Assembly: GCA_012845835.1 (NCBI GenBank)
Contig: JABAKD010000002.1
Coordinates: 11,258,120-11,322,119, forward strand
Length of the DNA stretch: 64,000 nucleotides
DNA from: Undaria pinnatifida
Taxonomy: Eukaryota; Sar; Phaeophyceae; Laminariales; Alariaceae
Direction: 5' to 3'
Position 1 is the stretch's first letter. The number at the start of each line of letters is the position of its first letter. The position numbers and the translations under genes were made by a program. Positions 5,065 to 64,000 of this stretch are shown here, one piece after another. The notes beneath the pieces are model-generated. The model was not told the origin of the DNA and made no database searches. It saw only the letters and a program-made list of their open reading frames with translations.

Positions 5065-5184
5065 GTTATATTACGGTACATCGTTACACCGGATGTTATA
5101 TTACGGTACATCGTTACACCGGATGTTATATTACGGTACATCGTTACACCGGATGTTATATTACGGTACATCGTTACACCGGAG
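5065..5184 (+). repeat. Perfect 30-bp tandem repeat, four copies
   Basis: Four head-to-tail copies of a 30-bp unit beginning GTTATATTACGGTACATCG differ only in the final base of the last copy. The unit length is a multiple of three, so frames stay open artificially. The lack of divergence implies very recent expansion. Confidence 0.98.
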
Positions 5185-8365: not shown

Positions 8366-8605
8366 ATTGAGACGTATGCACCAGTATGGACCTGGCACAT
8401 CATAGGCTGACTCCCGATTTCACTTTCATATGTTTCTGGTGGAGGCATGAATTGCGTCATTGACTCAGCTGTGATATATGCGTGTACCACCTTTGGTTTG
8501 TTTGTGTTTTTCCCTGGGGTATTCCTCAGCTCCAGAGTGACTGGAGCCTGTCCTGTGACCACGAACTTGATTATGCGAGTTAATGTGAGAATAACAACAA
8601 TATGA
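8365..8605 (+). mobile_element. 5'-truncated LINE copy
   Basis: It starts near GAGACGTATGCACCAGTATGG and runs through CATATGTTTCTGGTGGAGGC and the CTCCAGAGTGACTGGAG hairpin to GTTAATGTGAGAATAACAAC. It has the same 3' end as the other copies but begins about 480 bp further in than the copies at 5962 and 27970. Confidence 0.8.
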
Positions 8606-21086: not shown

Positions 21087-21250
21087 CATGAATTGCGTCA
21101 GCTGTGATATATGCGTGTACCACCTTGGGTTGCGTGTTTTTTCCCTGGGGTAATCCTCAGCTCCAGAGTGACTGGAGCCTGTCCTGTGACAACGGACTTG
21201 ATTATGCGAGTTAATGTGAGAAAAACAACAAACAACAACAACAACAACTA
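21087..21250 (+). mobile_element. 5'-truncated LINE copy
   Basis: Only the last 160 bp of the family is present, from CATGAATTGCGTCAGCTGTG through the CTCCAGAGTGACTGGAG hairpin to GTTAATGTGAGA and an AAC-rich tail (ACAACAAACAACAACAACAA). It is the shortest well-preserved copy. Confidence 0.85.
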
Positions 21251-33989: not shown

Positions 33990-34261
33990 GGTAGCGTGGC
34001 ACGTGGGGAATGGATGGCATCGACGGCCTCGCCAGCAGCGCGCTCGTCGTCGGCGTGGAGCAACTCGGTGATGTCCCTCAACAGACCTTTCCGAAGACGG
34101 AAGATGAGTACAGCGTCCGCCTGCACTCTGCCCTTCAGCTCGGTGATGCGATGCCCGAGATAAAACCTCCGTGCTGTGAACTTCTTCCCCAGCCTCTCGT
34201 CGCGCCCAAACCATGCACGCGAGATGATCCGCTTGTCTCGATCGCTCAGGACCGTGTGCAT
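33990..34261 (-). pseudogene. Left-arm coding fragment of the transposon, minus strand
   Basis: From ATG at 34261 the minus frame reads SDRDKRIISRAWFGRDERLG, then a basic helix-rich segment (LGHRITELKGRVQADAVLIF, RLRKGLLRDITELLHADDER). After about 90 residues the frame loses plausible composition. The segment is repeated as an inverted copy on the other side of a 37-bp spacer. The charge pattern suggests a helical nucleic-acid-associated protein; no family is recognised. Confidence 0.4.
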
Positions 34262-34447
34262 GGTTTAGGCGCGACGAGAGGCTGGGGAAGAAGTTCACAG
34301 CACGGAGGTTTTATCTCGGGCATCGCATCACCGAGCTGAAGGGCAGAGTGCAGGCGGACGCGGTACTCATCTTCCGTCTTCGGAAAGGTCTGTTGGGGGA
34401 CATCACCAAGTTGATCCACGCCGACGACGATTGCGCTGCTGGCGAGG
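34027..34447. repeat. Near-perfect palindrome: 192-bp arms, 37-bp spacer
   Basis: Arms 34027-34218 and 34256-34447 are inverted copies with roughly 95% identity (few substitutions, no large gaps). The junction reads CCCAAACCATGCAC, spacer, GTGCATGGTTTAGGCG. Transcription through this region would give a long hairpin RNA. Confidence 0.95.
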
Positions 34448-36740: not shown

Positions 36741-36743
36741 CAG

Positions 36744-36928
36744 ACGTGTTCGGAGATGGACAGACGAATGAGACTCGAGCGGAGGAGGACGAGGAGGGGG
36801 ACGGACATGACCAGGTCCCAGGGGTGAAGCAAAAGTGGAAACTCCTACCGCATTTCTTGAAGCTGAGAGGACTCATGCGACAACACATCGACTCCTACGA
36901 CTACTTCGTCAACGTTGACATCAGCAAG
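36744..36928 (+). CDS. RPC2: RPC2 exon A
   Basis: The certain part is from about 36821, encoding [16 protein letters not shown] and [15 protein letters not shown], followed by the donor AAG|GTGAAT in phase 0. Upstream the frame is an acidic stretch ([10 protein letters not shown]) with no ATG back to its stop, so the start codon lies in an earlier exon; the TTAGCAG at 36737-36743 is the proposed acceptor. This start is tentative. A frameshifted copy of the exon follows at 37055. Confidence 0.8.
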
Positions 36929-39900
36929 GTGAATCAAGGGTCAGGCATACAAAAAAATATCCATATGCTAGCATTTGTTTTGGCATAATTGGGCCTTTCT
37001 TAGAGCAATAAAGCAGCGTAATTGGGAGAAAACATGGTGCGTAGCATTTAGCATTTTCCGGGAATGAAGCAAAAGTGGAGACTGTTCCGCACTTCTTGAA
37101 GCTGAGGGGGTTGATGCGACAACACATCGAGCCCTACGGCTACCTTTTCAACGTTGATATCAGCAGGGTGGGCCAGTGATAGATGCGCAGCAGCGTCGTC
37201 GCACAGGCCTTTTTTTTCCTAGTAGGAAGGTCAAGATGATCTCTGTAGGCATTACTCCTATGCGCGAGGTATAGTTGCAAGATTGCGTCTTGTCTCATTT
37301 TATGTGCACTTCGCGATATGGCAGCAGGCAGCATGAACGTCTAACCTACCAAGTTTTTGTATGCAGTACGTTTGGCAGTACGTAGTCAATTTTACTTACG
37401 GTAGTTGCGATGTATATCTCTGCCTCGTAGGTTTTTACCAAAGAGCTTGTATCTGAATGTGATGGACGTTAATGAATAGAAATAGCAGTGTGTGATGTGA
37501 ACACAACACGCACTCCTTGACTTCTCCACGCGACAGCTTTCTTCCTCTCCCCTTGCTCATGCCTCACCGTCGTTGTGCAACTCCCGGGTACTTCTCCTGC
37601 TCCAGATCGTGCAAGCCAAGGGCAACCGCGAAGTTTTGAGCGACGTGGACCCGAAGTTCTTCCTGCAGTACACCGGTATCACCGTCGGCACGCCCTGCAT
37701 TGAGGAGGACGACTACACGGTCAAGACCAGTGAGACATGCTACGGTCGATAGGGTGACAGTAGAGCATACCACTTATTCGACAGACCCCATTCATTAGTC
37801 AAATACTCATGTTTCGGCATGTTTCATTGGTCAACACACGCGCACACTCATGGGTGTATCCTTGCTCCTGCTTGGTACCCTGATCGTACCCAGACCTGAT
37901 CCCGCCCGGACCCGAGCCCTCCAAATTTACCCCGGATATTGAGTGGTCGCCGGCAGGGCGCATCCAACACCATGACCCCACGCCGACCAAATGGAGGGCA
38001 GGCTACAGCCAGCAAATAATTTTGCGGCATAGTGTCGAACGATTGTTTCCCCGTTAGAAGGATTGTTTTTTCCGTCCAGAACGATTGCTTTTCCCTTTCG
38101 AACTATTTGCTTTTCACTTTTTGAACGATTGATTTCCCCTTTAGAACGATTGCAACCATCAAAACGGCGACGAGTTGCCATTCGTACGAACAAGCTTTCC
38201 CTGCGAGGGGTTCTTGTCGACAGATGTGTCCGAAAGCGCAGTTCGAACAGAAATAAGAGCTCAAAATACAATCACAGACACCAACACAAACACAAACACA
38301 AACACAAACGAGCTTGGGGGGTTCCTGAACGATTGCGTTGTTTTCCCCCCCCGTTTCCTCTTGCGCCTCCTTCCAGTTACGCCGTTTCAGTGCCGACTCC
38401 GCGACTGCACCTACTCTGCCCCCCTGTGGGTGAACGTGCGGTACACGCGAGGACGGCAGATCGTCAACAAGACCAACATCAACATCGGTCGCATTCCGGT
38501 CATGCTCCTCAGGTGCGCTGTTTGCGGCTCGCTGAAAAAAAAAACAGGAGCCGGTTGGGAAGTAACACGAAAAGTGCTCGTGCAAGCAAAGGGCATGTAA
38601 AAAAAAACGGTAGCAGGCAACCAATAATTTTTTTCGAGCGTGCTTCGAGATCCGATCCGCGCACCCGCCCTACTGCCACCAAGAGACATCGTAGCAAGTG
38701 ATGACGTGATGACCCATGGCAGCCATAAGTTATCTTGCGCGCAAGGCATGCGCGTCTCTGGGCAGCGGCAGATGTACGGAATGCGCAGTTTTTTTCCCCC
38801 GCGCATCAACCCTGAAACCGCCGTAAACCGGCACCCGCGTTGTTGGAGGACAATCTACTTGGAATTAGTGTCCCAATAAAACTGCAATTCTGAAGTGGTT
38901 AACGCGGCATGCAATTGTCAGAAAAGGACCAAATAACCTCTGCAGTTATAAAATGGCCGATGCGGCATGCAATTTTTTCGAAAGGAACAAAATCACCTCG
39001 GAAAAAGCTAAAACTCAATTGATTAATGTGTTGCTCTTCCGCCTTCTTTTTCCCACCGGTGGCGCAGCTGCAAGTGTGTTCTCACCGGTAAGAGCGAGTC
39101 GGAGCTAGCGGACATGAAGGAGTGCCCGTACGATCCGGGGGGCTATTTCGTGGTCAAGGGCGTCGAAAAGGTAGGGTGGGTAGGTGGGTTTCCACAGCGT
39201 GCCTACTCATGCCGCTTCTTTGCGAGTCTGTGGAGCAAGCATTTCTTGCCCTTGCTTGAAGGCTTGTCGTCTACATGTGCGGCGTAGCGAACGGTAGTTT
39301 CGTTGGCCCTTTGGGCCCCCCGGATATAACAACCGAAGACACGTTAATTAAGAGTCGTTATTTTAAAAAGACCATACAGACCTTGCAGATCATGTAGATC
39401 ATATAGATCATGTAGGAAATATAGATTGTGTATCTGTCTCCAAGGTATGTAAAGCTGGATCTGTTCAGTGCAGATCCAAGCGAAGAGATATGTGCTAGAT
39501 CATGCAGATCGTGCGACTCCCACCCCGCAACATGATCTGTAGGTCATACAAATCGTGCAGACGACACATGCTACGGTAGAGGTGCACACTTCCTTTTTTT
39601 TTTAATACTACTCCTCACTCCAGGAGGTCTGTATTAACGATACCTTCTTAACCCTTCTCAACCCAAAAACTGTTTTGAGAACAGAAAGTGAAACCCGATG
39701 AACAATCTCATGTCCTAGGTATAAAACGAAAAAAAATGAGGGAAAAAAAAATGACATTCCAGATATATTGGGTTAAGGAGTCCCGAATTTGAAATATGTT
39801 TTTTTTTCCAAAAAGTGCTATTTGTACCTCCATCGTAGCAAGCGTCAGACCAAGGATCTGTCTACTCGGAAGGACATAGATCATTTAGAATTAATACGGA

Positions 39901-42900
39901 TCTGACCTGTCCGTCGTGTGCGATTTTCTGCAAGTAGTGTGAGCGCCCAGCAAGGGTCGTAGGATCGTGCTGCGCCCCTGCCGTACTACTCCTTGCGTTG
40001 TTAATTTGTGGTTCCACCACCAAATTTATCGTTCGTTTGCCATTCATTTATCATTCATTTATTGTTTGTTTGACGTTCGATTATCATCCTTTTATCGTGC
40101 ATTTGTCACTCATTTATAATGCATTTATCGTCCATCCATCGTTCATTTACCGTCCTTTTAATAATTCCTTCATCATCCCCCCGCCAAGCAGTAGCCGATG
40201 CTGTGATTGTGCTTGTCTGCCCTCGCGTTTCCTCCCTGCAGTCTCGAAAGGGTTAGTCGTTAGTCGTGTGCGCCGTGTCGACCGTTCCCTTCAGCTTCAA
40301 AACGACGATAACCCTGTGCCCATTGTCGGTTGTCCCCTTCAACATTTGTCTATGGGCTTAGCACAGCGATCGTGCGAGCAAAAGGCCACACTGCGCACAC
40401 ACACGGGTTTTGCCGTTAGATCAATCGTTGTCTGCGGGCTCAGACCATACCAGCCGAGGGTCACACCGCCCTTGTGTGTTCGCCGCTAAACCAATGAACC
40501 GCTCGCCTTTGCCGCAAGTCGTTGGAAGTGCAGGTGATCCTGGTGATCCTGATGCAGTTGCAGCTGTCGGAAAACCGCGTCATCACCGAGTACGACGGAT
40601 TTCGTCATGACACCAATCACTCGCTCTCCTTTGCCCCACACATGTCTCGCCGCTAAACCGAGCATTCGCTCTTCTTTTGCCACGACCGATTTTTAATGCA
40701 GGTGATCCTGATGCAGGAGCAGCTGTCGAAGAACCGCGTCATCATCGAGTTCGACGGGAAGAAGAACATCTCCGCGGCTATCACGTCGTCCACGCACGAG
40801 AGAAAGTGAGTCACTCGCTCACAGCAGCAGCACTGGAAACGTTTTTAACCACGCGCGCGCAGGAGGTGCGGTGCTCCCGTATTTTGGATGTGACGCGCGA
40901 ATAAACCTTCCGAAAACATTATGGCCTACCATAACACATGCATGTCGATCGATGCTGCGCGCAAACGATTGGTCGGGGACATCGCAGGTCTCGGTGCAAC
41001 ATCCACATGAAGAACGGCAAGGTCTACATGAAACACAACAGCCTGGGGGACGACGTGCCAATCGTGGTCATTTTGAGAGCGATGGGGGCGACTAGCGACC
41101 AGGAAATCGTCCAGCTCGTGAGTAGACGTAGCCCGAACCCACCGTACCGTACCGTATACAAGTACAGTACATGCCCCGAGTATGACATAGTTTAATGAGA
41201 ACGTTATGCTCACTTATTTGGGGACGCCAAGAAATTCGGAGTCTGAAACCGTACTCAGCGGCAAGCGCTACGTGAATCCTACGCTCAAGGTTTCTCTATT
41301 TTGGTGTCACGGTAAAATTATGAAAGGTTCGCTCGGATGAGGCGTTTCTTGTTTCCAGGGTTGTACTAGTGTATTCATACCCCCAACGAATGTTTCGTCT
41401 TGTCTTGGGGTTTCGGAACGCACCGGACGTTAACTTTTTTCTTATGCGTTTCTGCTATTGAGTTGAGTTGCTTTCGTTTTTTTATAGATTGTATGCGGTT
41501 TTCTCTCGGTTTCTGTTGCAAGTTTCTGACATCGTATGTATGTGTGTAAGTAATATCGTCAACCAACTTCAGGTTCCCACGGTTGGCACAAAAGTTGGAA
41601 CCATATGTTTGCTACCAATTGCTAGGACTGTCTATGAAGCGAGCTCATTCGTGTTATAGTCCCCGAAATCCTCGACGAGATACCAGCGAGGAGCGGAAAA
41701 AGTTAAGACCATCCCACCCACCCTACACTGGGTATTCTTTTAACAGTTGTGTTCATTTCCCTTAGGAAATACTGCTGCGCTGAGGGCACTTCGACCGAAG
41801 GCACCCTCAGCGCGGGTGGTGTATCCATAGGTGAGGACCTTCTGCGGGAGCAGGAAGCCTCATCCAATCAATACTTGAATGAAATGATCGGTAACAGAGT
41901 TAAAGAATACCGCAGTATTATGTATGTATGTATGTATGTATGTGTCTGACACCATGTACGTACGCTGATCTCTTGGTTCACTTTTGAGTTGTTGTCCGAT
42001 GTATGTGTGTACGTGTACTTCTTTTAGGCTTGTGTTATTTTGTTGGGGCCTGTCCTGTGACCACGGTCTAGCGTATGGCGATGAGCTATAATACCGTGGG
42101 TAACAACAACAATGAAAACAACGATGTCATCGGAGGATGTTTGTCTTTTCTTGAGTTTCGGGACGCGATGGGCGTCAGCAGGTGGTATGGCATCGACATG
42201 ATGTACGGGCGGTGATGTCCAGTTGGCGCTGTTACCCTCGACCGCGGTGGTCAAGCGACTGACTCCCTCAAACCTAAAGCTCGCTTTTTAGTGGTGTTCT
42301 GCATATGCTCCCATGCTTATTTTTTGTTGGCCGACCTTTCGCTTGGCAGCAGTGGCGCTCTACAGCCGTTCCCAGGCGTGCTTGTCTTTCCCCAGGCCGA
42401 CCTCTTGTAGGAGCTTGGCTCGGCCGATTTTTGCCCTTACGACTGCCGCGCGATCAAACACACGCCACAGAGCCAGCCCCGCTGAAAACAGAAGGTTTAG
42501 AGCGTGCAACAGCACAAGTGTCGTCGTGCTGCGCGCATGTCGTGCATGTACTTCCGTTGCACTCCGGACGCATCCCTGCCTCTGCAACCAGGGCTGTTTC
42601 ATTTGGGCAATGCTGTAGTCAAGCAGCTTAATCAAGTAATTTTAGTCAAGAAATTTAATTATGTCGTGAAATCAAGTAATTTAGTCAAATAATTTAATCA
42701 AGTCACTCAATTAAGTCGTTTGAATCAAGTCGTTAAATTAAGTCGTTTGAATCAAGTCGTTAAATTAAGTCGTTTAACCAAGTAATTTACTCCCGTCGTT
42801 TAACCCCGTCATTTAATCCCGTCGTTTAACCCCGTCATTTAATCCCGTCATTTAATAAAGGCTTTTAATCAAGTCATTTGATCACATCGTTTAATAAGTT

Positions 42901-54900: not shown

Positions 54901-57900
54901 AGCTTCGTGAGTTTGAATGCCCCCGAGTGCGTACTCGTATGAATTTTCGTCTTGCGCACTCATTGACTTTTGCGGAAAGCGCGAGAGCGTGAGTTAGCAA
55001 CACTCGATGAAAAGTCGACGATCGGTGGGTGCTGAACCCTATGCGCCAAAAAAAATGAAGGCAATAACCGGGGGAGGGAAGGGAAGGACGACACCTGTGA
55101 CCATGGCTTGTATGTCCAGAAGCTGGAAAGTAGCAGTGTGCCAAAAAAAAAAAAACTAGAAGAGATGATCAATCAGCAATCAGCAGCAAGGAGCACGTCA
55201 AGTACGAAGCAACACAAACTTATTTATCAGTTACGTATCAACACGACCGCTTGCATTTGACCGGCAAACGACCACAGCAACGGAGTCAGGGACCGCAGCA
55301 AACAGCAAAGCACGCCATCCCCACACATTTCTCCAAAGAGTCTTCTCGGGGAAAAAAAACACCTAACAAAGCTCTACGGGGACGAATGCATGACACCACT
55401 GGTTTCTTCGGTAGATACTGTCTACTTACTACCACCTTCGCGTGGCGCAGCTTAACAACAGGAGGAGCTGGTATAATACAACCCTCGAGGCCCCGGGGAC
55501 GCAGCCACTCGCAATGCTGCTGTGTGGCTTTTCCTGGCGCAGTGATCGTAATCACTAATACCTCCTCGTTTAGTCATGCGTGCGCTTGCCACGTCTATAT
55601 CCATGTATGTATGTACGTGTACCTACCGAACTTCAGTAAACAAATGTACTACTACTATGATCCCTACCGCAGTACCATGGGGATTTTTTTACAGTAATAT
55701 TATTATTTGTTTTGGGACAAAATATGATGCCAATTTGGAAATAATGTCTCGCCAAGTTTTATTTTATCAACCTCTCCATACATCCAGATCCGAAGAATAA
55801 CTGGAGAGTACCGTTCAAAATACTAAATTTTGCGCGCTTCTCGCTTGGACGGCGGTCTTTGTACAAAGTGATTTAATCGGGAAATGCTACAGCACTGCCC
55901 ACTCAGCGATACTTCATCACTTGACTCAGTAGCTCAGTGGGTAGTGCTACTACATACATATATGTTAAACTACCTAAACAATCATACTCAATGTTGTAAG
56001 CGCGCACGCTTGAAAATGACAAACATGAAGTCGGTGAGAATCGAACTGACGACACATAGCACTACCCACTGTCACTTGACTCAGTAACACTCACAGTGAG
56101 TGGGTTATGCAAAAAACCAACCAAATATGTTTTCGAGTTCGTTAGTTAATTCTCACCGACTTCGTAAGAGGGATCTCCGGAGCTATCCCCTCTCCACGTA
56201 CTACAGTGAGTAGTACTCAGGAGAACACTAGCAACTATCATAACCATTCATAACGTCTCCAACGCGCACGCTCCTGAATACCAAATATGTGAGAATCGTA
56301 CTCACGACACATCCTTCGTTGGTTATATAGCACTATACCCACTGAGCCGAAAGTAAACGACACACAGCAGTAGTAGCTACGATAGGGCAAGCGCTTGGAG
56401 GCGGCCATGACAAAAGCATCGTCGGGAAGAAATGTAGATACCAATTTGGAAATTACGCCAATTTGGAAATGTTGTCCCTTACTTATTCGTTCAAGCTCTA
56501 CATATGCCAAGATCCAAGAATAGCTCGGGCGTCTACCGCCCAAAATACAAAAAAAACGCACTTTTCGCTTGTCTCGCTCAGCGTCTATCCGCGTTCACGT
56601 CGATGTGCCGAACGGACACGGCAGGGCGAGGGACGTTAGAGCCGCCCCCCGAAGACGGCGCTCGAACGAAGCTATTTGACCGAGATTCCAAGAATCGCAT
56701 ACTCCTCCTGCAGACGGTATTTGCGTAATAAGGTCGCGCAAAAGAACGGTTCTGAGCCTATCTATGTCAGGTTGACGTGTAGACCAAGCACGCTCAAAAT
56801 GAGAAACATAGCACCAAACGCGATCATATAAAAAGATGAAATAGAGCGATCTACTACTGGTAGAACACGCGTTCTTTTGGACGTATCATGTTCGTCTTGC
56901 AGCCTTTCTAATCTTCTTGCATGACATTCTTCACAACTACTCGCAATTTCCCGTGTTTTATTCGTTCAAGCCCTGCAGACGTCAAGCAAAACAACCGCAA
57001 TTGGGCTAGTTACTATTATTAGGTCGCGCAAAAAACCTTGGCCTATTGGGTCAAAGCCTACTAACTAAGCTCGCAATTATTTACGCGGTTGCAATTCGGC
57101 TGGTCATTTGCATCATATATGTTATCTAGGGATTTTTTTATTTGTTAATGAAGGGTGTCCGTCTAGAATTTTACTTCCTAAATAAAGTTGTATCCCCGCC
57201 TGAAGGCCCTTCGTTCCCGGCTGTAGGGGATCTTTCGCATATGCCGAAGTATATACGTGTACGAAAAGCACGTCATCGCTCACGCATCATTTATTTATTT
57301 ATTTCTGTAGGTTGCCCATCGTTGTTGTACGTTGTTGTTGGCGCGTACCCAATTAATATTTTATCAGATGTTATTTTTTCATGTGCGTATTCACCCGAAA
57401 TTATACACATTCTTCACAGCTCCTCCTGCAGACGTGAGTTGCGTAATAAGGTCGCGCAAAAATGCGATTTTGAGCCTATGTCAGGTTGACGTGCAGACCA
57501 AGCACGCTCGAAAGGAGAAACATCTCAACAGCACCAAACGCAATAATATAAAAAGACGAATTAGAGCGATCTACTACTGGTATTATAACACGCGCTCAAG
57601 CCCTGCAGACGTCAAGCAAAACAAACGCTCGAGACTATACCACCGCAAAATTCAAAACTTGAGCAACTACCAACCGTTTGGAAATGATGCCAATTTTGGA
57701 AATTATCCAGGCGCTGCAGGCGTTAAGATACAACCGAAGTCGCAACATTACCTCCTCAAAATACATTTTTTTTGCAACTTCTCCCTTGTCTCGCTCAGCA
57801 TCCATCCGCGTTCACGTTGAGGTGCCCAACGGATATGGAAGGGCGAGGGGCGTTGGAGCCGCCCCCCGAAGACTTTTACGTGTTTCATTCGTTCAAGCCC

Positions 57901-60900
57901 TGCAGACGTCAAGCAAAACAAACGCTCGAGAGTATGCCACCGCAAAATTCAAAACATTAGCAGCTACCGTTTGGAAATGATGCCAATGTTGTAAATAATC
58001 CAGGCGCTGCAGACGTCAACATACAACCAAAGTATCAAGAATTCCTTCTCGACATGCAATATTTTTGCAACTTCTCGCTTGTCTCGCTTCGCATCCGTCC
58101 GCGCTCACGTCGAGGTGCGGAACGGATACGGCAGGGCGAGGGGCGTTTGAGCCGCCCCCCGAAAACGGCGCTCGAACGAAAAGCTATTTGACCGAGAATT
58201 CCAGTTCCGCGAACTCGCATACCGAGGCCGAGACGAAAAAAACTCCTGACCGAATCCCCGAAAAAAAGAATGATCATATGTATATAAAGGTATGTCGCCG
58301 ACTAGTCAGGTACGAAGACACGGGACCCTGCAAGAACAAATTGCCGCACGCAATGGATTGCTGTACACTGTGATAACAACAACGATTAATTGGCTAGGTA
58401 CCATGGTACAGCGTTGTTGTTCTCGCATTTGCTCTCATAGTCAAGTCCGTAGTCACAGGACAGGCTCCAGCCACTCTCGAGTGAAAGAAGGAAAAACCAA
58501 ACCAATCAAACAATGTTACACGTGTATCTCATAGCGTATTACAGTCCGATGCGTGGGGTCATTTTCGTTTGCAGAATACTGTTTCTTCGTACCTGACTGA
58601 CGCGTTTGTGGCTCGATGTGTGGTGTTTATTACTAAATACCAGGTACTACTTATAAGTCAGTTGGCTGGTTTTAACTCCGCCACCTATGTAGTAACTAGC
58701 AAGGTAGCGGTGTAGTCTATATAACTAACTCAAATCCCTGGTGTACTGACAGGGCTTTGTTGTTGTTGATGTTCTCACATTAACTCGCATAATCAAGTCC
58801 GTGGTCACAGGACAGGCTCCAGTCATTCTGGAGCTGAGGAATACCCTAGGGAAAAACACAAACAACCCAAGGTGGTACACGCATATATCACAGCTGACGC
58901 AATTCATGCCTCCACCAGAAACATATAAAAGTGAAATCGGGAGTCAGTCTACGATGTGCCAGGTCTATACCTGGTGCATACGTCTCATTACTCGCGCCTG
59001 GATAAACCAACGATACCGCTTGCCACCCAAGAAAGACTACCACGTATATATCACACGTAGTATCTATCACTACGCATACGCACGACAGATGCAAGTCAAT
59101 TGGAAAAAAGTAAACCACTCCTGGGTACTCCCCAGGGTACGACATTTGTTGTAAAATCTGATGCATCACGCTATGTGTTGATCCTTCCCTTTCTGTTGCT
59201 TGCTCCTAGCCTGCTCGTCTTTCTTGTAACAATTTTTGAATTTACCTTACTATTTTGCTCCTTCCCATTTTATTGCTGCAATCTGAGTCGCTCGGCTTTT
59301 TTCCGTGTATTTCTTGAGGAAAAAAACACTTAGTTGTTGACTGTTCGCGTCCTTCGTTGCCTCCCCGCGCAGCTGACGTCTGCTGCTCGGTGACGGTCAA
59401 TGCATCTTTACCCCGACCAAATTTTCTTGTCTGATTGCCTTCCCCATCGACTGCTGCCATTTTCTTGTTGTCGTCTGTTTGCCCAGTGACGGAGGTCGAG
59501 TCTGCCGACCGTTACTGGTGGTAGAAAACGGCCGAACCCGTCTCACGAAGACGCATCTGGACCAGATGGCGCTGGGGGTCCTTTCCTTGCAAGGTGAGTA
59601 GCGGAAGGTTTCCACACTCGGCCTATGGCTGTACGAGTCAAGATCGATGCATACTCTATAGCAGTGGCGTGGTTTGCACAAGGAGAGGTAGTGTTAAGAA
59701 TGTCAGTCGCCCCCCAACTGCGTATCGCACCCCCGGCTAACTTAATCCCTTTAGAACCCTTCCTAGTACTAATTCCATGTAATTTGCCCCTCAAAACGGA
59801 TTTCCGGTTGCACAGGCGTCAAGACGCGTTCCTGCAAGACAAGTCGACGCGTGTTACGGTAAAGGGCAGCGCGTACAATTTGTGGGGTTCCTCAGTTGAA
59901 GAGCTTTATGTTCCTCTCACCCTAAAACTGGCCTTGAGAGAAAAAAATAATCCAAAAATGGAAAATTGTCACCCGATGAACAATACCACGTCCTAGGTAA
60001 ACAAAAGAATTGCGGTATATTTTAAAAAGACGAATGACACTCCGACCTTTTTCTGGCATTTCCTCAGTTGACGAGCGGCGCCAGTCAGAAGGCACGCGCT
60101 ACGATAGAGGTATATACCTTTTTCTGGCAAAACTACTTAGTCATCCCACGGTATGCATTACGAGTAGGGGTACGGCGGAAGTTTCGGAGCTCCTAACATG
60201 AGGAGCTCAATATCTCGCTCGAACCTTGAGGTGTATACCCTTTTTTGGCAAAACTACTTAGTCATCCCACGGTATGCATTAGGGGTGCGGCAGAAATTTC
60301 TGAGTTCCCAACATGAGGAGCTCAATATCTCGCCCGAACCTTTACTTCGAAGGCGTTCGCCCGCGCAATCCGACCAACACGTCTATGCGCCAGTCCCGGT
60401 TGGTTGAACACCTATACTGGTAACAGTATAAGAAAACCTTGTATTTGTTCCACTGACTTGAGGAGGTCAACCGCACTATAGAGGTCAGAAGGGTCAGAAG
60501 GTCAGAAACATTAGTTAACCCAAAACGTGTAACCCCTATTGACTACGCGAAAAAGCTGAAACTGCGATTTCTTGTAGGGGACCTGGACCTACCAGAAGAA
60601 AGATATATACCAGTAGTCGGGAGGAGGAGGACGTGGCAACAAATATGTGCCCGTGTGGCTCAACAATGGAGAGTAGGACTCATATAGCATGAAAACGTGA
60701 AATACACAAGGAGGATCGGGATGCGTTAAAGGAGGGGATGAGGAAATTAGACGTAGGTAACATGGTAGAGTTTGGTAGACTAGAGTAGCGAAAAAACGAT
60801 CGCTATGCTAGGAGATAGATAGTGGCCGCAGACGGCGAAACAGGAGGGGGATAAGATAAGCAAACAGTTTCTACGTAATATAGGGAACAAGCGTAATAAG

Positions 60901-63091
60901 CGCCCAAATGTTGTAGGTGTCTCAATTAACAGCAGGAACGATGGGCCGTCTCGAAAGGGATGCGTGGTCAATGGTTAAATGACTAAGGCAAGCAGCCAAT
61001 GAGTACCCCCCCCTCAACCTTCCCCCCACCGTGGGAGGACTGATCTCGCTACGATACGGGGATGGGGGTTGCATTTTTTGGCTAAAATGTGTTCTGAATG
61101 ACGGGACACTCCTTGACCCAAAACGGTCAGAATGTCACAATTTTTTTTGCAATATTTTTCGTTGTACACCTATTATCATAGGCCCTGGGATTGTTCATAG
61201 GCGGGTACAACCAGTTTTTTCTCGTGGTTTTGAGTTTGTGTGAGGCACAGATCTCGTCTAGCGAGGAGCGGACTCATCCTACGGTAGCGGTGCGCTGTTG
61301 TGTTTTCTGAGGCTCATAACCACTCGAGGGGCCTTTGTTTTTCCCTGCAGGGTTTTTCACTTGAGAAGCTCTGCACCTTACACAAAAACTGACTTATTAA
61401 TACAGTAAACTGCAAATGCAACTCAATGACCAAACCATTGGCCTCCGAAGTTGACACTCCAAACAACAATTTGAATTGAAAAAAAAAACAAAAAAATCCA
61501 ACGATTTTTGGGCTAAGAAACCCCGTCATTCAGAAAATAGTTGAGCTAAACAGTGCTACGTCTATTTTGTAGCACACGTGAGCCTTGGCATTTTTTTTAT
61601 GCACCTCTACGGTAGCATGAGTCTACCCGTCAAGTCTAGTTCGGCCAGTTCACAGCCCTCACAAACCCGCTCCACTCCCATTTTAGTTTTTTTGTCGTAT
61701 CCACTCGAAACGGACGTGGCAGAGTACGTGGACGGGGACGAGGAAAACAACCGACTCGTTTATTTGTCCACGACGCAGACCATACGGTGAACACGCACAC
61801 CACCAGGGAATCAACCCCCTAACGCTGGATGTCGATAGGTACAAAGAACGGTGTTAGAAATGCACGGCGATTACCAGCTCAGCGGTGATGCTGCATCTCT
61901 GACAAGCGGCGTATTTCATCTGAAGAACACGCACAAACACACAACAAATGCACACACACGCACACGCACACCCGCCCCCGCTTCCATTCCCGTTTTTATT
62001 TTGTCAGATCTGATCAAGCAGGGCGTGGTGGAGTACGTGGATGTGAACGAGGAAAACAACTGTCTCGTCTCTCTGTCCGACGCAGACCTCACCCTCAATC
62101 ACACCCACCTGGAAATCGACCCTCTAACGCTCCTGGGGGTGGTGGCCGGTCTCATCCCCTACCCGCACCACAACCAGAGTCCCCGCAACACATATCAGTG
62201 CGCCATGGGCAAGCAGGTATAACGGGTTAGATGTCGGGGAGGACGGGGGGGGGGTACTCATTTCGTTTTTTTTTTGGGGGGGGAGGGGGGGTTGACTACT
62301 ACGTGTACACTGTACGGGGGAATAATCGCATCCGCGATAAAAAAAAATAGGAAGCATGCATCGACTTTCTATCGTTCCTGGGGGTGGTAGCCGGTCTCAT
62401 CCCCTACCGCCACCACAGCCAGAGTCCTCGACATGCACCAGTGCGCCATGGGCAAGCAAGTGAGAATAGCTGGACTATTGGGCGGGGGGGGGTTAGGGGG
62501 GGTGCACTCATGTCACACACGACCGTTTCAGGACATAAACCCGCGCATCCCTCCGATGCCCGGACGGAGCACGTTGGGTTTTCGCCAACCAGGCACTTCT
62601 GGTACAAAGCGCGAGGGGGTAGGGGGGGGGGGGGGGGTGACTGCTGCTTTGTTGCGGGCGTACATCGTCAATGCCATGAGTCAAGAGAGGCCTCCAGGGG
62701 TACGCCATTTCGGCTCCGTTTTTTTTCCCCCTTCGACTGACCAGGGGCACACGAGGGGAAAAGTAAATAAAAAATCCTACCGCTATTTCAAAGGCGTAGA
62801 CAGCGGGGGTTGCGCGAAAACCAAGTTAAAAATATGGATTTTGTTTTGCAACATTTAGGAGCGTGGGGTCATTTTTTTTTCTCTCTTTGTCGCGAACCCT
62901 CGGTGTGGGAGAGACTATTCACACCTGAAAAAAACATTGACACCGATCGTTCGGTTTTGACGTGTCCTCAGGCCATGGGCACGACGGCGCTCAACATGCA
63001 CGAGCGCATGGATGGTCTGCTCTACGCCCTGGTGCACCCTCAAAAGCCTATGGTGACCACGAGAGTCTTGGACCTTGTGCACTTCGACCAG
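36744..63091 (+). CDS. RPC2: RNA polymerase III subunit RPC2 (partial, 17 exons)
   Basis: Encodes the second-largest catalytic-core subunit of RNA polymerase III, which with RPC1 forms the cleft that makes tRNA and 5S rRNA in the nucleus. Joined exons follow the RPC2 family from near its N-terminus ([20 protein letters not shown]) through protrusion, lobe, fork and external domains to the start of the hybrid-binding domain ([20 protein letters not shown]). The signature [20 protein letters not shown] identifies Pol III rather than Pol I or Pol II (Pol II has a different sequence before HWGM). All seventeen splice phases agree and no internal stop occurs. About 725 codons of a family near 1,130 residues are present; the C-terminus with the DIEDA region is beyond 64 kb, and the first exon is unresolved. 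Intron content is extreme and several introns contain echoes of exon edges. Confidence 0.95.
37055..37172 (+). pseudogene. Frameshifted duplicate of RPC2 exon A
   Basis: GAAGCAAAAGTGGAGACTGT to ATCAGCAGGGTG matches exon A at about 85% including the donor position. One base is missing after the seventh codon (CTGTTCCGC against CTCCTACCGC), so the frame breaks and a stop follows. The copy lies 134 bp downstream in the intron. With the intact exon A beside it, this copy is taken as dead. Confidence 0.9.
37606..37729 (+). CDS. RPC2: RPC2 exon B
   Basis: [20 protein letters not shown] and [20 protein letters not shown] fit the family segment after the first helix (NEKVTSDADP...). Acceptor CTCCAG, donor CCA|GTGAGA, phase 0 in, phase 1 out. 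Confidence 0.92.
37790..38030. repeat. Family R2, copy 3
   Basis: Matches copy 1 at 1355-1555 from CGGCATGTTTCATTGGTCAA through CCGAGCCCTCCAAATT and GTCGCCGGCAGGGC to CAGCCAGCAAATAA. In RPC2 intron B-C. Confidence 0.8.
38035..38160 (+). repeat. Minisatellite of about 23 bp, five to six copies
   Basis: Units of the form GAACGATTGYTTTTCCCTTT (with GAAGGATTG and GAACTATTTG variants) run through RPC2 intron B-C; they give spurious Phe/Ser-rich frames. Confidence 0.85.
38377..38512 (+). CDS. RPC2: RPC2 exon C
   Basis: Completes Thr-Ile-Thr-Pro, then [25 protein letters not shown] and [13 protein letters not shown]. It matches the CRLRD.TYSAP and IGR.P.ML signatures. Acceptor CTTCCAG, donor CAG|GTGCGC, phase 1 in, 2 out. 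Confidence 0.95.
39068..39170 (+). CDS. RPC2: RPC2 exon D
   Basis: [20 protein letters not shown] and [14 protein letters not shown], matching the conserved DPGGYF.VKG.EK of the protrusion. Acceptor GGCGCAG, donor AAG|GTAGGG, phase 2 in, 0 out. Confidence 0.95.
39640..39910. repeat. Interspersed repeat family R4, copy 1
   Basis: CCGATGAACAATCTCATG, TCCTAGGTATAAAA and GACATTCCAGATATATTGGG recur as relatives at 46040-46140 and 59950-60050. Flanks contain AACCCAAAA and repeated AGATCATGT words (39380-39420). In RPC2 intron D-E. Confidence 0.6.
40010..40170 (+). repeat. Degenerate 10-11 bp minisatellite TTCATTTATCG
   Basis: More than ten units of TCATTTATCGT-like sequence in RPC2 intron D-E. 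A similar-length but different unit forms the array at 42620-43050. Confidence 0.85.
40480..40648 (+). pseudogene. Decayed copy of RPC2 exon E and its acceptor
   Basis: A unit starting CGCCGCTAAACC is duplicated at 40480 and 40650. The first copy holds an acceptor-like AAGTGCAG, then GTGATCCTGGTGATCCTGAT (nine bases doubled), then the equivalent of [13 protein letters not shown], then diverges and lacks the distal half of the exon. The second copy leads to the real exon E. The copy is still open but has lost conserved residues (EQ to LQ, K to E). Confidence 0.9.
40702..40805 (+). CDS. RPC2: RPC2 exon E
   Basis: [20 protein letters not shown] then [14 protein letters not shown], matching the family's [12 protein letters not shown] and SSTHE signatures. 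Acceptor AATGCAG, donor AAA|GTGAGT, phase 0 in, 2 out. Confidence 0.96.
40988..41117 (+). CDS. RPC2: RPC2 exon F
   Basis: [20 protein letters not shown], then [20 protein letters not shown] and VQL. The IPI..I.KAMG.ESDQEIVQ signature is clear. Acceptor CATCGCAG, donor CTC|GTGAGT, phase 2 in, 0 out. Confidence 0.96.
41118..43180 (+). other. RPC2 intron F-G
   Basis: About 2 kb with a TATG microsatellite (41921-41945), a short degraded LINE end at 42046-42120 (CCTGTCCTGTGACCACGG, then AACAACAACAATG), and a 430-bp minisatellite (42620-43050). Confidence 0.6.
42620..43060 (+). repeat. TCAAGTCRTTTAA minisatellite, about 30-35 units
   Basis: Units of 10-17 bp built on AAGTCATTTAAT / AAGTCGTTTGAATC / CCCGTCATTTAAT, with higher-order repetition (AATTAAGTCGTTTGAATCAA twice in a row). 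In RPC2 intron F-G. Confidence 0.95.
43181..43338 (+). CDS. RPC2: RPC2 exon G
   Basis: [20 protein letters not shown], then [14 protein letters not shown] and a Lys/Arg/Pro linker. It aligns to the family's IGTEEHVMAAFGPSLEE and QALKYIGNK. Acceptor CCAAAG, donor TTC|GTAAGT, phase 0 in, 2 out. Confidence 0.93.
44196..44271 (+). CDS. RPC2: RPC2 exon H
   Basis: [20 protein letters not shown] then SHVPV, matching EEARELLASTILTHVPV. Acceptor TGTTGCAG, donor GTG|GTAAGA, phase 2 in, 0 out. The short exon was fixed by phase and homology. Confidence 0.93.
44320..44550 (+). repeat. Direct repeat around CAACGTGCGGCGGA
   Basis: CTGCAACGTGCGGCGGAATTTTCG (about 44328) and CTTCAACGTGCGGCGGATTTTCGA (about 44503) lie 175 bp apart in RPC2 intron H-I, followed by diverging GGGAAAATGCC/GGGTATCATAACGCC. 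Their relation to an exon is not evident. Confidence 0.6.
44738..44833 (+). CDS. RPC2: RPC2 exon I
   Basis: [20 protein letters not shown] then IDPTTVDDK, matching FNFRAKCIYTAVMVRRVIL and the VDDR segment before DYYGNK. Acceptor ATGAAAG, donor AAG|GTGAAG, phase 0 both sides. Confidence 0.93.
45205..45530 (+). repeat. 97-bp tandem duplication followed by GTTGTC-rich minisatellite
   Basis: GTAGTACGCGCAAGCCTACA and GCAGTACGCGCAAATCTACA head two units of about 97 bp (45210-45305, 45306-45405) with TATGATAGCGTTGGTCCTTG / TACGATAGCAATTGGTTCTTG. Then TTGTTGTTG and GCGTGGTTTCGTTGTCGTTG units continue to just before exon J. Confidence 0.88.
45539..45686 (+). CDS. RPC2: RPC2 exon J
   Basis: [20 protein letters not shown], then [11 protein letters not shown] and [10 protein letters not shown]. 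Nearly invariant [14 protein letters not shown] of the family. Acceptor ATGCGCAG, donor TAG|GTGATC, phase 0 in, 1 out. Confidence 0.97.
46010..46420. repeat. Family R4, copy 2
   Basis: CCTAGGTATAAAATATAAGC and GACATTCCAACGATA correspond to 39716-39770. It continues with GATAGATACAGATCC-like sequence. In RPC2 intron J-K. Confidence 0.55.
46566..46890 (+). repeat. Four tandem echoes of RPC2 exon K and its acceptor
   Basis: Positions equivalent to the exon K start fall at about 46598, 46649, 46735 and 46826. Each is preceded by GTCGTCTTGGGCCGTCGTCC (real site: CGTCGTCTTGCTGC) and followed by versions of GCAARTTCTTGGA; the last two continue into ACGA..GTTACGAATGTTT or GCAAACGGTTTCTCGCCCAC against the exon's ATCACGAACGGTTTCACGCA. 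Three of four keep an intact CAG|GC acceptor. Frames are broken. Confidence 0.9.
47174..47283 (+). CDS. RPC2: RPC2 exon K
   Basis: [37 protein letters not shown]. It matches ITNGM.[22 protein letters not shown]. Acceptor CAATCAG, donor CAG|GTGCAC, phase 1 in, 0 out. Four decayed echoes lie upstream. Confidence 0.97.
47700..47840 (+). repeat. Family R5, copy at 47.7 kb
   Basis: GGCCGGTATTACTTGC, TTTTCAAGAGCTTCTCCCTC, GCACCCCCGGGATCTC and AACATCCCGAAGGGGAACC match the right part of the element at 4425-5050. Confidence 0.7.
48611..48956 (+). repeat. Three tandem echoes of RPC2 exon L and its acceptor
   Basis: Units of about 120 bp place exon-start equivalents at about 48642, 48763 and 48891; the real start is 48989. 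All contain TTTCGAGGCT(A/G)(A/G)GCTTC or TCTCGAAACTGAGCTTCATT like the exon's CTATCGAGGCTGAGCTTCAT, and each is preceded by a GTGCTA-CCT/GCACTTTCCAG-type intron end. Copies 2 and 3 keep AG|GTT. Between them TTTTAG(C/T)GACGAG(C/T)TGA also repeats, so intron and exon edge were duplicated together. Confidence 0.92.
48989..49163 (+). CDS. RPC2: RPC2 exon L
   Basis: [20 protein letters not shown], then [20 protein letters not shown] and [13 protein letters not shown]. This is the fork region and the strongest family signature. Acceptor TTGCCCAG, donor TCG|GTGAGG, phase 0 in, 1 out. Echoes flank it on both sides. Confidence 0.99.
49275..49350 (+). repeat. Echo of the exon L donor junction
   Basis: GTTGGAAACCTTGGTGAGAT, then TCGAGAACGGAGCGTGCGCA and AATCGTGCTTCGCG match the exon L end and donor (GTTAAGAACCTCGGTGAGGG ...) at 134-bp offset, about 85-90% identical. 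The copied donor is intact as a GTGAGA site. Confidence 0.93.
49622..49800 (+). repeat. Single end of the CTGAATGAC MITE family
   Basis: CTGAATGACTGGGTTACTTA, ACCCAGATTCGTCG then TTTTGCAATATCAATCGTTG resemble the left end and interior of the MITE at 61094-61533. No partner end was seen nearby. Confidence 0.55.
49921..50080 (+). CDS. RPC2: RPC2 exon M
   Basis: [20 protein letters not shown], then [15 protein letters not shown] and [14 protein letters not shown], matching LASNLGVEDV and VFLNGNILGV. Acceptor TACAACAG, donor GG|GTGCGT, phase 1 in, 2 out. Confidence 0.95.
50095..50520 (+). repeat. Minisatellite of about 36-42 bp, first array
   Basis: Units built on CAGAACTT(C/A)CAGAAGTTCCG and GGGTACGGGTATGAAAGTC, with CCCCGGGTATTG insertions, about ten copies in RPC2 intron M-N. 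The same array type occurs at 52180-52520 in the same orientation and the same intron. Confidence 0.95.
50530..52170. other. Unassigned stretch in RPC2 intron M-N
   Basis: No gene or clear repeat seen. Several frames of 60-130 codons lack recognisable motifs. Confidence 0.5.
52180..52520 (+). repeat. Minisatellite of about 36-42 bp, second array
   Basis: Same unit as at 50095-50520 (CAGAACTTCCAGAAGCTCCG, GGGTACGGGTATGAATGTC), about eight copies. The two arrays are 1.7 kb apart. Confidence 0.95.
52540..52680 (-). repeat. Family R5, inverted copy
   Basis: ATCCCGGGGGTGTCCTGAG and CGGCCCGCAAGTTACCCGGC match R5 ends in reverse orientation relative to the copy at 47.7 kb. Confidence 0.65.
52798..52895. 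repeat. TTGTG pentanucleotide array
   Basis: GTTGTGTTGTGTTGTG with GGTTGGGTTGGG variants, about 18 units; frames over it are artefacts. Confidence 0.95.
53275..53641 (+). repeat. Tandem 120-bp units ending at the exon N acceptor
   Basis: Three units share GTGTGACAATTTTRACGTGT, TTGCCGCGGTGCACATG-type and GTCGACTGCGGATGC / GTCGAGTGTGGATGC phrases (starts near 53278, 53397 and 53526). The last unit runs directly into the real 3' splice site. A further pair (52960-53050 and 53205-53270) shares CCGATTTTCTC-like and TAGTACCAAGA / TGCTACCAAGA words. Whether the acceptor itself was copied is less clear than for exons K and L. Confidence 0.75.
53642..53752 (+). CDS. RPC2: RPC2 exon N
   Basis: [20 protein letters not shown], then [16 protein letters not shown], aligning to [22 protein letters not shown] and CVYI. 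Acceptor GATACAG, donor CAG|GTACGC, phase 2 in, 2 out. Confidence 0.94.
54000..54023. repeat. Perfect GC-rich hairpin, 10-bp stem
   Basis: GGGTGCCGGC, loop ATAC, GCCGGCACCC. It resembles a terminator or Helitron-type 3' hairpin, but neither a T-run nor a CTRR end follows, so its origin is open. Confidence 0.9.
55735..55870 (+). repeat. Partial copy of the GAGCCGCCCCCCGAAG repeat
   Basis: GCCAATTTGGAAATAATGTC, CCAAGATC/CCAGATCCGAAGAATAACT and CGCGCTTCTCGCTTGGACGG correspond to the front part of the unit at 56440-56760. The distal GC-rich half is absent. Confidence 0.6.
55918..56100. repeat. tRNA-like (SINE head) fragments, one per strand
   Basis: On + the phrase CAGTAGCTCAGTGGGTAGTG is a good Pol III A box. 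On - , about 100 bp further, CAGTGGGTAGTGCTATGTGT and CAGTTCGATTCTCACCGAC give an A-box tail and a B box. The strands face each other, so this looks like two broken or inverted SINE heads. No intact cloverleaf could be drawn. Confidence 0.6.
56280..56352 (-). repeat. tRNA-like SINE head
   Basis: On the minus strand TCGGCTCAGTGGGTATAGTG (A box) and, 35 bp on, GTGAGTACGATTCTCAC form a T-arm with a perfect 5-bp stem and a 7-base loop. The acceptor ends do not pair, so it is judged a tRNA-derived retroposon head and not a tRNA gene. Confidence 0.65.
56440..58205 (+). repeat. Nested tandem repeat with GAGCCGCCCCCCGAAG unit, three copies
   Basis: Units of 280-320 bp end in GTGCSRAACGGAYAYGGMAG and GGGCGTTKGAGCCGCCCCCC at about 56610-56660, 57815-57875 and 58105-58165. 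They begin with GGAAATGATGCCAAT-like and TTCGTTCAAGCCCTGCAGACGTC. Between the first and second copies a longer segment (TGCGTAATAAGGTCGCGC, CAGGTTGACGTG, GAGCGATCTACTACTGGT) is also duplicated (56700-56880 and 57425-57590). Frames over the GC part stay open in parallel but no family is recognised. Confidence 0.88.
58418..58495 (-). mobile_element. Short LINE 3' fragment, minus
   Basis: TCATAGTCAAGTCCGTAGTC, ACAGGACAGGCTCCAGCCAC and the preceding GTTGTTCTCG match the terminal 70 bp of the family in reverse. The hairpin is partly decayed (CTCGAG). Confidence 0.7.
58755..59112 (-). mobile_element. 5'-truncated LINE copy, minus
   Basis: Reverse complement of the 3' 350 bp: GTTGTTGTTGATG tail, TCTCACATTAACTCGCATAA, hairpin CTCCAGTCATTCTGGAG, GAAACATATAAAAGTGAAAT and ACGCATACGCACGACAGATG, ending at GCAAGTCAATTGGAAAAA. 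Truncation occurs within the pyrimidine tract of the full 3' region. In RPC2 intron N-O, antisense to the gene. Confidence 0.88.
59487..59593 (+). CDS. RPC2: RPC2 exon O
   Basis: [20 protein letters not shown], then a helix-rich stretch ending LGVLSLQ. The SDGGR.CRP signature is decisive. Acceptor TTGCCCAG, donor AAG|GTGAGT, phase 2 in, 1 out. The part after LVVE diverges from the family, as this loop usually does. Confidence 0.94.
59920..60060. repeat. Family R4, copy 3
   Basis: CACCCGATGAACAATACCAC, GTCCTAGGTAAAC and ATGACACTCC correspond to 39690-39760. In RPC2 intron O-P. Confidence 0.55.
60107..60345 (+). repeat. 120-bp tandem duplication
   Basis: GAGGTATATACCTTTTTCTG / GAGGTGTATACCCTTTTTTG head two units that share GGCAAAACTACTTAGTCATC, CCACGGTATGCATTA and ACATGAGGAGCTCAATATCT. 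Confidence 0.95.
60350..61090. other. Unassigned stretch in RPC2 intron O-P
   Basis: AGGTCAGAAGGGTCAGAAGG runs (60475-60510) only. No coding signal. Confidence 0.5.
61094..61533. mobile_element. 440-bp MITE-like element
   Basis: The left end CTGAATGACGGGACACTCCT and the right end in reverse complement, CTGAATGACGGGGTTTCTTA, then GCCCAAAA / ACCCAAAA, form terminal inverted repeats of about 28 bp with several mismatches. The interior is AT-rich and non-coding. No clear target-site duplication was seen. A related single end lies at 49622. Confidence 0.75.
61700..61835 (+). pseudogene. Decayed upstream copy of RPC2 exon P
   Basis: GACGTGGCAGAGTACGTGGA, then GACGAGGAAAACAACCGACT corresponds to exon P's GTGGTGGAGTACGTGGAT and GAGGAAAACAACTGTCT, and further on CCCCTAACGCTGGATGTCG to CCCTCTAACGCTCCTGGGG. 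The peptide is recognisable ([17 protein letters not shown]) but a stop follows after TIR, and the acceptor CAG has changed to a TCG-type sequence. About 75% identity over 125 bp. Confidence 0.92.
62008..62216 (+). CDS. RPC2: RPC2 exon P
   Basis: [20 protein letters not shown], then [20 protein letters not shown] and [18 protein letters not shown]. The VEY.DVNEEN and [12 protein letters not shown](C/S)AMGKQ signatures open the hybrid-binding domain. Acceptor TTTGTCAG, donor CAG|GTATAA, phase 1 in, 0 out. Decayed copies lie on both sides. Confidence 0.99.
62220..62300. repeat. Homopolymer G/T block
   Basis: Runs of G (62246-62253, 62275-62291) and T (62265-62274). Length may be uncertain in the assembly. 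A similar G run is at 62618-62637. Confidence 0.8.
62370..62462 (+). pseudogene. Decayed downstream copy of RPC2 exon P 3' end and donor
   Basis: CCTGGGGGTGGTAGCCGGTC, TCATCCCCTACCGCCACCAC, AGCCAGAGTCCTCG and CAGTGCGCCATGGGCAAGCA match the last 90 bp of exon P at about 90%. A short deletion near CGACATGCACC against CGCAACACATAT shifts the frame. The donor is still GT-like (AAGCAAGTGAGA), giving a strong decoy 5' splice site. Confidence 0.95.
62972..63091 (+). CDS. RPC2: RPC2 exon Q with GC-AG donor
   Basis: [20 protein letters not shown], then [20 protein letters not shown], aligning to [20 protein letters not shown] and YPQKPMVKTKTIELIEF. Acceptor CCTCAG. The best boundary is CCAG|GCGAGT, a GC donor in an otherwise perfect consensus; no GT nearby keeps the alignment. 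Phase 0 in and out. The following exon (LPAGQNA... in the family) is not in the window. Confidence 0.93.
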
Positions 63092-63307
63092 GCGAGTTTT
63101 GCTGAACATGCTATGATACCATGAATAACAGCAAATAATTATATTTTAATCGGAAGGTTTCATTTTTGCATTTGAATATTCATTTTTTTTTATGGAAATG
63201 AGATTCGTAGTGGAATTTTGTTGCAATTTTCTTTTAATATTATATGTATACACTACATTGAAGCACAAAAAATATGAATACACCCTTACAAATCCGCTTG
63301 GTTATTT

Positions 63308-63440
63308 GTTCTTGTTCTCACATCAACTCGCATAATCGAGTCCGTGGGCACAGGATAGGCTCCAGTCACTCTGGAGTGGAGGAATACCCCACAGAAAAAA
63401 CACAAACTAAACCAAAAGTGGTACACGCATATCTCATAAC
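63308..63440 (-). mobile_element. 5'-truncated LINE copy, minus
   Basis: TCTCACATCAACTCGCATAA, GGATAGGCTCCAGTCACTCT, GGAATACCCCACAGAAAAAA and GGTACACGCATATCTCATAA match the terminal 130 bp in reverse, with GTTCTTGTTC as the tail. Confidence 0.85.
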
Positions 63441-63604
63441 TTGGTATACGGTACCAGGTATGTTTTTTTTTATGGTTTTGTTGTGTCCCCGGACTAGATT
63501 TCGGGAAAAATCAGCGAGGGAAAGAACGTCATCGTCTTCATCGTAAACACCATTACTACTGTAGATGGCTGTAGCGGCTAACATTCGTACTTTCTGTACG
63601 GTGC

Positions 63605-63650
63605 TCTCGTATGATTTACTGTGGCGTTGTACTTCGATCAGGCGAGTAGA
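63605..63650 (+). repeat. Echo of the RPC2 exon Q donor junction
   Basis: GTACTTCGATCAGGCGAGTA resembles the exon end and donor GCACTTCGACCAGGCGAGTT 550 bp upstream. The rest is diverged. Two weaker ACACGCGAGYTCGGCRTG units follow at 63731 and 63840. Confidence 0.7.
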
Positions 63651-64000
63651 TGGTTGTGTAGGTTTACATGTACACTTGATACACGGTATTCTTGCTTGTT
63701 TTTCTGCAACGCTGCACAGTACGTACAACTCACACGCGAGCTCGGCATGCTCTCCTCGTGTATGACTGCCGCCTCCACGAGCGTTCACTTCGCGCACCAC
63801 CATAGAGCCTATCTACATACTTGGAGATGGCCATGCTGAACACGCGAGTTCGGCGTGTTTTTCCCTGTGTGTATGTCTGCCACTGAATAATTGACCTCAG
63901 CATATGGTTCCTCGCGTGTGTTTGCTGCTCAATTCTATTACTACTGCAAACCATACTATTTCCAAGAAGTGTGTCCCTAAAAACGTGGGCATACAGTTTT

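Follow-up and report, generated by a model that had tools for sequence, protein, structure and literature searches.

We analyzed a 64,000-nucleotide stretch of the genome of the brown alga Undaria pinnatifida (contig JABAKD010000002.1, positions 11,258,120 to 11,322,119 of the forward strand; hereafter the window), in which a gene for the RNA polymerase III subunit RPC2 (POLR3B-like) carries, within its introns, copies of the edges of its own exons, termed below echoes. The gene was recognized from its translated exons, the best relative of which in the PDB is 7a6h_B (E = 3.5e-214). Spliced alignment to P0121, a 4,978-bp contig that we take as transcript-like because it carries the open frame of a gene that extends over 40 kb, located 28 exons, 17 within the window and 11 beyond. 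The gene continues for ~13 kb outside the window, up to window coordinate 77280, and its start codon was not found. The resulting frame, of 1156 aa without stop, is 98.5% identical to P0121 without internal gaps, and its protein relatives are two sequences at 99% and 98%, followed by Chrysoparadoxa (76%) and Tribonema (72%). The coding sequence of exon 1 extends back to 36743 or before, i.e. over at least 186 nt, and is continuous in P0121 too. A piece of exon used as query in a plasmid search gave no match. The 27 introns have a median length of 1,051 bp and a maximum of 5,734 bp. Brown-algal introns are long according to the available part of a study of Ectocarpus, in which autosomal introns have a median of 524 bp and hold much transposon sequence (PMC12477816).

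The 17 exons of the window, each extended by 60 nt of flanking sequence, were searched by BLAST against their adjoining introns, up to 4 kb, and the weak cases were retested specifically. The gene and the echoes found in the window are the following (exons also carry letters, A for exon 1 to Q for exon 17):

36743..63091, + strand: RPC2 exons 1-17 (spliced alignment to P0121; relative of 7a6h_B)
37065..37170, + strand: echo of the 3' edge of exon 1 (A), matching 36825-36931 with 84.1% identity, E 1.6e-29
40542..40598, + strand: echo of the 5' edge of exon 5 (E; 40702-40805), matching 40701-40757 with 89.5% identity, E 2e-18
46538..46847, + strand: tandem array of the 5' edge of exon 11 (K; 47174-47283), period ~86-91 bp, from Tandem Repeats Finder (TRF) and self-comparison
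48612..48672, + strand: upstream echo 1 of the 5' edge of exon 12 (L; 48989-49163), 75.8% identity, E 7.8e-7
48759..48805, + strand: upstream echo 2 of exon 12 (L), 83.0% identity, E 1.5e-9
48875..48917, + strand: upstream echo 3 of exon 12 (L), 79.1% identity, E 2.7e-6
49277..49352, + strand: donor-edge echo of exon 12 (L), 22 nt of exon and 58 nt of intron, 82.5% identity, E 1.1e-19
53176..53216, + strand: donor-edge echo of exon 13 (M; 49921-50080), 78% identity over 41 nt, E 6.5e-5
61666..61826, + strand: upstream echo of the 5' part of exon 16 (P; 62008-62216), 31 nt of intron and 124 nt of exon, 74.1% identity, E 2.7e-21
62360..62461, + strand: downstream echo of exon 16 (P), its last 102 nt plus GT, 84.6% identity, E 2.1e-29
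63622..63647, + strand: short donor-edge echo of exon 17 (Q; 62972-63091), BLAST core 63628-63647, E 6e-4

The original prediction, made from the letters of the window, had named six exons with copies of their edges in an adjacent intron (A, E, K, L, P and Q). All six pass either BLAST or a targeted score test, with one upstream copy for E, three upstream copies and a donor echo for L, one copy on each side of P and a donor echo for Q recovered as predicted, and exon 13 (M) adds one to the list. The upstream array of K, which was also predicted, is weak in BLAST alone (best E 0.011); the K edge, from about -39 to +40, nevertheless scores 47.5, the highest of 562 null draws being 32, and the units of the array include ~35-40 nt of intron. 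The M echo, 3.1 kb downstream of exon 13, scores 46 against a null maximum of 32 (324 draws), and the short Q echo 32.5 against 26 (543 draws). Echo A had been described as a copy of the whole exon, which it is not: it contains the final 104 nt of an exon of at least 186 nt, plus 3 nt of intron, and a similarity test of its flanks gave nothing. With introners or other dispersed elements in mind, a genome search made for A, with 36744-37744 against the assembly (511,146,479 bp in 68 contigs), scored at least 16 matches, of which the 15 non-self ones fall in query positions 221-263 or 611-711, neither in the exon part nor in the echo. Beyond the window, echoes were observed for RPC2 exons 18, 21, 23 and 28, the last one weak (34.6 bits). 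P0121 contains no insert derived from an echo.

The same class of copies occurs in other genes. We assembled a sample of 88 exons from three gene groups, composed of the 28 RPC2 exons and of 60 loci with 1.5 kb flanks, the latter being the best 30 of 57 matches to the CCT chaperonin family and 30 of 34 matches to the tRNA-synt_1 (aminoacyl-tRNA-synthetase) family. Exon edges of the 60 loci were set automatically by a simple splice-site score and may be off by some nt; 11 of the 60 matches contain an in-frame stop; they were retained, and three of them (L025, L063 and L075) belong to the 12 loci with echoes. Low-complexity pairs were removed with a cut-off of 0.70 for the echo counts, the circular shifts and the comparison of edges with windows, and of 0.75 for the identity table and the direct/inverted count; alignments longer than 700 bp were removed, except in a cruder CCT count, and the identity table also drops those shorter than 40 bp. 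With an echo defined by E < 1e-3 within 1 kb, one or more edge echoes occur in 20 of the 88 exons (CCT, 6/30; tRNA-synt_1, 6/30; RPC2, 8/28). K, M and Q of RPC2 fall beyond the limits of this search and are excluded from the 20, and the CCT figure is the oriented count, the cruder one, from core matches only, being 5/30.

Two features characterize the 40 exon-touching alignments of this sample. Copies of the 5' edge lie upstream of the exon and copies of the 3' edge downstream, and 39 of the 40 reach the called splice edge, the remaining one (exon 23) beginning 13 nt inside. None of the 40 spans a whole exon, and the exon-edge copies are 69.9-92% identical to their source. The clearest array is found in the CCT gene L033 (1601-2376), where seven donor-edge copies stand in a row with their ends 80-87 bp apart, the first one ~100 bp beyond the exon; these copies mostly consist of the exon end and 12-17 nt of intron, a length that varies with the choice between two donors ~5 nt apart. 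By eye only, the limits of the L033 units have TGTG in common.

Many echoes retain splice signals, as originally predicted: GT is kept in 21 of the 25 echoes that reach a donor, the donor of the L donor-edge echo being GTGAGA, and AG in 9 of the 12 that reach an acceptor. The total of 30/37 compares with ~67% expected from overall identity, in a count whose members are not independent and where alignment ends favor matches. Selection on the dinucleotides was considered and not accepted, because a single array supplies seven of the 37 and because of this effect of alignment ends. Judging by their letters, the echoes in which GT or AG is intact are candidates for decoy splice sites.

We then compared the exon edges with the rest of the introns. 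Among local pairs within 1 kb, over 268,762 merged bases, 292 are direct (12.75% coverage) and 19 inverted (1.06%). Shuffled sequence gave 0 pairs versus 289 in the real one (overlapping loci unmerged), which excludes chance for the echo class. In RPC2, 11 edges are touched by a duplication versus 9.6 expected under circular shifts, the fraction of shifts as high being 0.39; when the period limit is raised to 1,100 bp, the numbers become 12 and 10.9, and the fraction 0.43. Over the whole sample, 25 of 176 edges are touched (14.2%; 10/88 acceptor and 15/88 donor) versus 16.4% of 40-nt intron windows, a difference of -2.2 points with a 95% bootstrap interval of -7.9 to +3.7 (88 exons), and in the 60 non-RPC2 loci edges are lower than background (10.8% versus 16.0%). 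Duplication coverage is ~7-13% in the first 100 nt from the exon, ~15-22% from 100 to 500 nt and ~10-14% from 500 to 1,400 nt. A hotspot at exon edges is thus rejected for this sample, as neither circular shifts nor matched intron windows reveal an excess; detection bias favors edges. The original prediction had proposed a repeated process of short tandem duplication across splice junctions, and had itself given an even spread over introns as the outcome that would speak against it: duplication across junctions stands, L033 being the clearest case, whereas its targeting to edges does not in these 88 exons, a sample rather than the whole genome.

Duplications confined to introns are illustrated by two further features of the RPC2 gene:

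57593..58166, + strand: intron-only local duplication in the N-O intron, period 297, 85.8% identity over 281 bp
60107..60342, + strand: intron-only tandem duplication in the O-P intron, period 121, 86.8% identity over 121 bp

Local duplications of all types, both copies counted, make up 19% of RPC2 introns 1-16. The echoes account for 1,024 of the 24,096 bp of these introns (4.2%) and are therefore not the main source of their length, contrary to what had been suggested.

Taken together, we consider it probable that the echoes are ordinary small tandem duplications, filtered by selection and kept visible by the constraint on exons; the pattern would then be an already known type of duplication. 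Small direct tandem duplications, of tens to a few hundred bp, would arise often across the introns of this genome, by replication slippage or repair, and some would happen to span an exon-intron junction. If the copy still attached to the remaining exon retained functional splice signals, the extra copy would fall in the intron, where it would be near neutral, persist and decay; duplications lying wholly inside an exon would break the protein and be lost. That the copy joined to the exon remainder is apparently the one in use, with the others decaying, had been foreseen, and is what the gap-free protein alignment suggests. In a junction-spanning duplicate, the exon copy would be held constant while the intron halves of both copies drift, and eventually only the exon part would be recognizable, giving an apparent stop at the splice site.

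The composition of the duplicated units bears on this last step. Units that clearly include intron are found in K, the L array, L018, L062 and L063. For L upstream, the intron sequence in the array scores 62 against a null maximum of 31 (n = 311), and the intron upstream of echo E has a local copy scoring 36 against 26 (n = 345), with an offset of 122 and not 159. Only three pairs cover at least 0.8 of their period, those of L018, L062 and L063, and their intron shares are 68%, 90% and 81%, respectively; in the 37 partial pairs, the median intron share of the alignment is 0.21. We simulated tandem duplications of 80-350 bp placed randomly over a junction, with the exon frozen and the remainder drifting, under 18 settings of divergence and indels. 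For 0.15 substitutions per site and an indel/substitution ratio of 0.25, the simulated units have a median intron share of 0.20 and a ratio of aligned length to period of 0.49. At the same divergence, an indel ratio of 0.10 gives 0.52 and 0.95, and one of 0.50 gives 0 and 0.27, and at 0.05 substitutions the units remain complete. In this model, differential decay can thus yield the splice-site-bounded look for part of the settings. With an indel ratio of 0.25 and 0.20 substitutions, 37 of 60 junction duplications are detectable versus 3 of 60 intron-only ones, hence exons keep old duplications visible. The equal visible density at edges and in introns then hints at edge events being, if anything, less frequent than others, or purged.

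Several observations weigh against this account. The simulation settings are not calibrated to this genome, those at 0.15-0.20 substitutions range from 0 to 0.52 in median intron share and from 0.27 to 0.95 in aligned length over period, and the simulated median identities (75-81%) are lower than the observed median of 82.7%. Complete tandem units, with overlapping loci counted separately, do not fall steadily with age: they make up 10/20 of the chains at >=92% identity, 8/22 at 88-92%, 6/32 at 84-88%, 7/73 at 78-84% and 36/103 at 70-78%. Most pairs are not head-to-tail, 54 of the 73 chains at 78-84% identity spanning less than half of the period. Some pairs are fresh yet partial, namely the upstream copy of exon 5 (89.5% identity, 57 of 159 bp) and two copies of exon 23, one of 51 bp lying 865 bp away (90.2%) and one downstream covering 74 of 339 bp (87.8%). 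We also asked whether the intron side of the presumed units still shows any residual similarity. Of eight such tests, one for E and one for L are above every null draw, both tests of P are weak, at 0.014 and 0.023 (the second value being owed to the 31 nt already aligned), and four, including both flanks of A, show nothing. Finally, in RPC2 taken alone, edges are slightly higher than background (21.4% versus 17.2%). The fresh partial pairs in particular fit the simulation poorly, so that some events may be spaced copies from break repair.

Repair-mediated local copying is the strongest of the alternatives; we regard it as possible but less likely than not, and as a serious competitor for part of the events. 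Here, a broken intron would be patched from nearby DNA, by synthesis-dependent strand annealing or template switching, leaving spaced direct copies, some of them of exon edges, and such patching may operate alongside tandem duplication. Its spaced products are consistent with the chains at 84-92% identity, 37 of 54 of which span less than half of the period, and with an intron pair in L041 (1912-2546), 265 bp long, 98.5% identical and separated by a ~105 bp spacer, which would be a spaced copy of very recent date. In vertebrates, duplications made by repair are known to include splice sites, according to the available part of the source (PMC2671141). Repair might, however, be expected to copy in both orientations, yet 292 of the 311 local pairs are direct; half of the freshest chains, those at >=92% identity, are complete tandem units and only 5 of the 20 span less than half of the period (overlapping loci again counted separately); and partial pairs could also come from differential decay alone.

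A process specific to splice junctions, or an RNA-templated variant of it, that copies GT/AG-bounded exon edges into the adjoining intron and drives intron growth appears very unlikely. The alignments do end mostly near splice sites, hence the low median intron share of the 37 partial pairs, GT or AG is kept more often than overall identity predicts (in non-independent counts), and half of the eight flank tests show no intron similarity. Against this stand the lack of edge excess, with intron-only duplications equally dense, the large intron content of the three near-complete units, the ability of decay to create such a boundary, and the small part of introns 1-16 made up by echoes. Copying bounded by the junction itself, an idea prompted by the alignments ending at splice sites, was set aside on these same near-complete units and on the simulation, which gives the same look for some settings.

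We give still less weight to tandem exon duplication, in which the echoes would be present or former alternative (mutually exclusive) exons. Echo A, 84% identical over 104 nt of exon with intron flanks devoid of detectable similarity, looks as if it had been constrained for a time; by contrast, none of the exon-touching alignments covers a whole exon, and P0121 aligns to the called exons without internal gap. Tandem regions are generally prone to assembly errors. An artefact of this sort, which the original prediction had raised against itself, has next to no plausibility here, since edge copies only 69.9-92% identical are not assembly duplicates, the loci lie on many contigs, and the assembly holds 511 Mb in 68 contigs.

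Comparison with known systems (based on the available part of each source) places the echoes among familiar kinds of duplication. A tool for exon duplications in annotated genes likewise reports exon copies that cross exon-intron limits or lie wholly in introns, as 'degenerate (pseudo) exons', and finds such copies in significantly more genes than full-exon duplications; it differs in relying on tblastx with coverage cut-offs, whereas our copies are short edges, in 20 of the 88 sampled exons. The short local 'doublets' and the repair-mediated duplications are closely linked short duplications that also include exons and intron splice sites, while in our sample local pairs are almost all direct and some form tandem arrays (PMC2671141). 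Tandem duplication of exon segments bearing AGGT is an established source of introns, and shares with the echoes the tandem duplication of exon sequence with splice-like motifs (PMC3443670, PMC2891723). Intron gain from two copies of one exonic AGGT has no counterpart in RPC2, whose echoes are contained in larger introns and whose coding sequence has stayed the same and is gap-free relative to P0121. Tandem or mutually exclusive exons similarly place exon copies in neighboring introns, as whole exons used alternatively rather than as edge fragments (PMC9741552). In brown algae, shuffling of the leucine-rich repeat (LRR) exons of ROCO genes also proceeds by intragenic tandem exon duplication; it concerns whole 72-bp coding exons under diversifying selection, as opposed to decayed edge fragments in housekeeping genes (PMC11378527). 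Among the papers listed in literature searches, titles and abstract openings contained no description of exon-edge echoes in brown algae, which is not proof of absence.

Other repeats were noted in the window. The M-N intron contains a minisatellite with a 41-bp unit, in two clusters (50142-50508 and 52204-52484) ~1.7 kb apart. A dispersed repeat family, 83-94% identical within the window, has one member in the large N-O intron (58759-59113) and others at 6296-6650, 8361-8600, 21087-21238, 28337-28682 and 63296-63436. A foldback-like stretch of ~420 bp (34027-34447) is nearly the reverse complement of itself (91.7%), and a 30-bp unit occurs in four perfect copies at 5064-5183.

Returning to ordinary small tandem duplication, the preferred reading has a bearing on how such copies are interpreted: splice-site-bounded copies can stem from ordinary duplication plus differential decay, and similar findings elsewhere need that control. 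A broader extension, which we put forward as doubtful, is that exon edges act as a fossil recorder, the frozen copy showing layers of duplication too old to be seen inside introns, in which case serial small tandem duplication would be a leading cause, for the most part unseen, of the long introns of this lineage. If so, ~14% of junctions would have been duplicated within the detectable span (up to ~0.25 substitutions per site in the simulation), introns would have grown by at least that fraction, and competing splice sites would have been left behind. Small tandem duplication is here a further measurable source of intron length, and conserved exons offer a view of its older layers.

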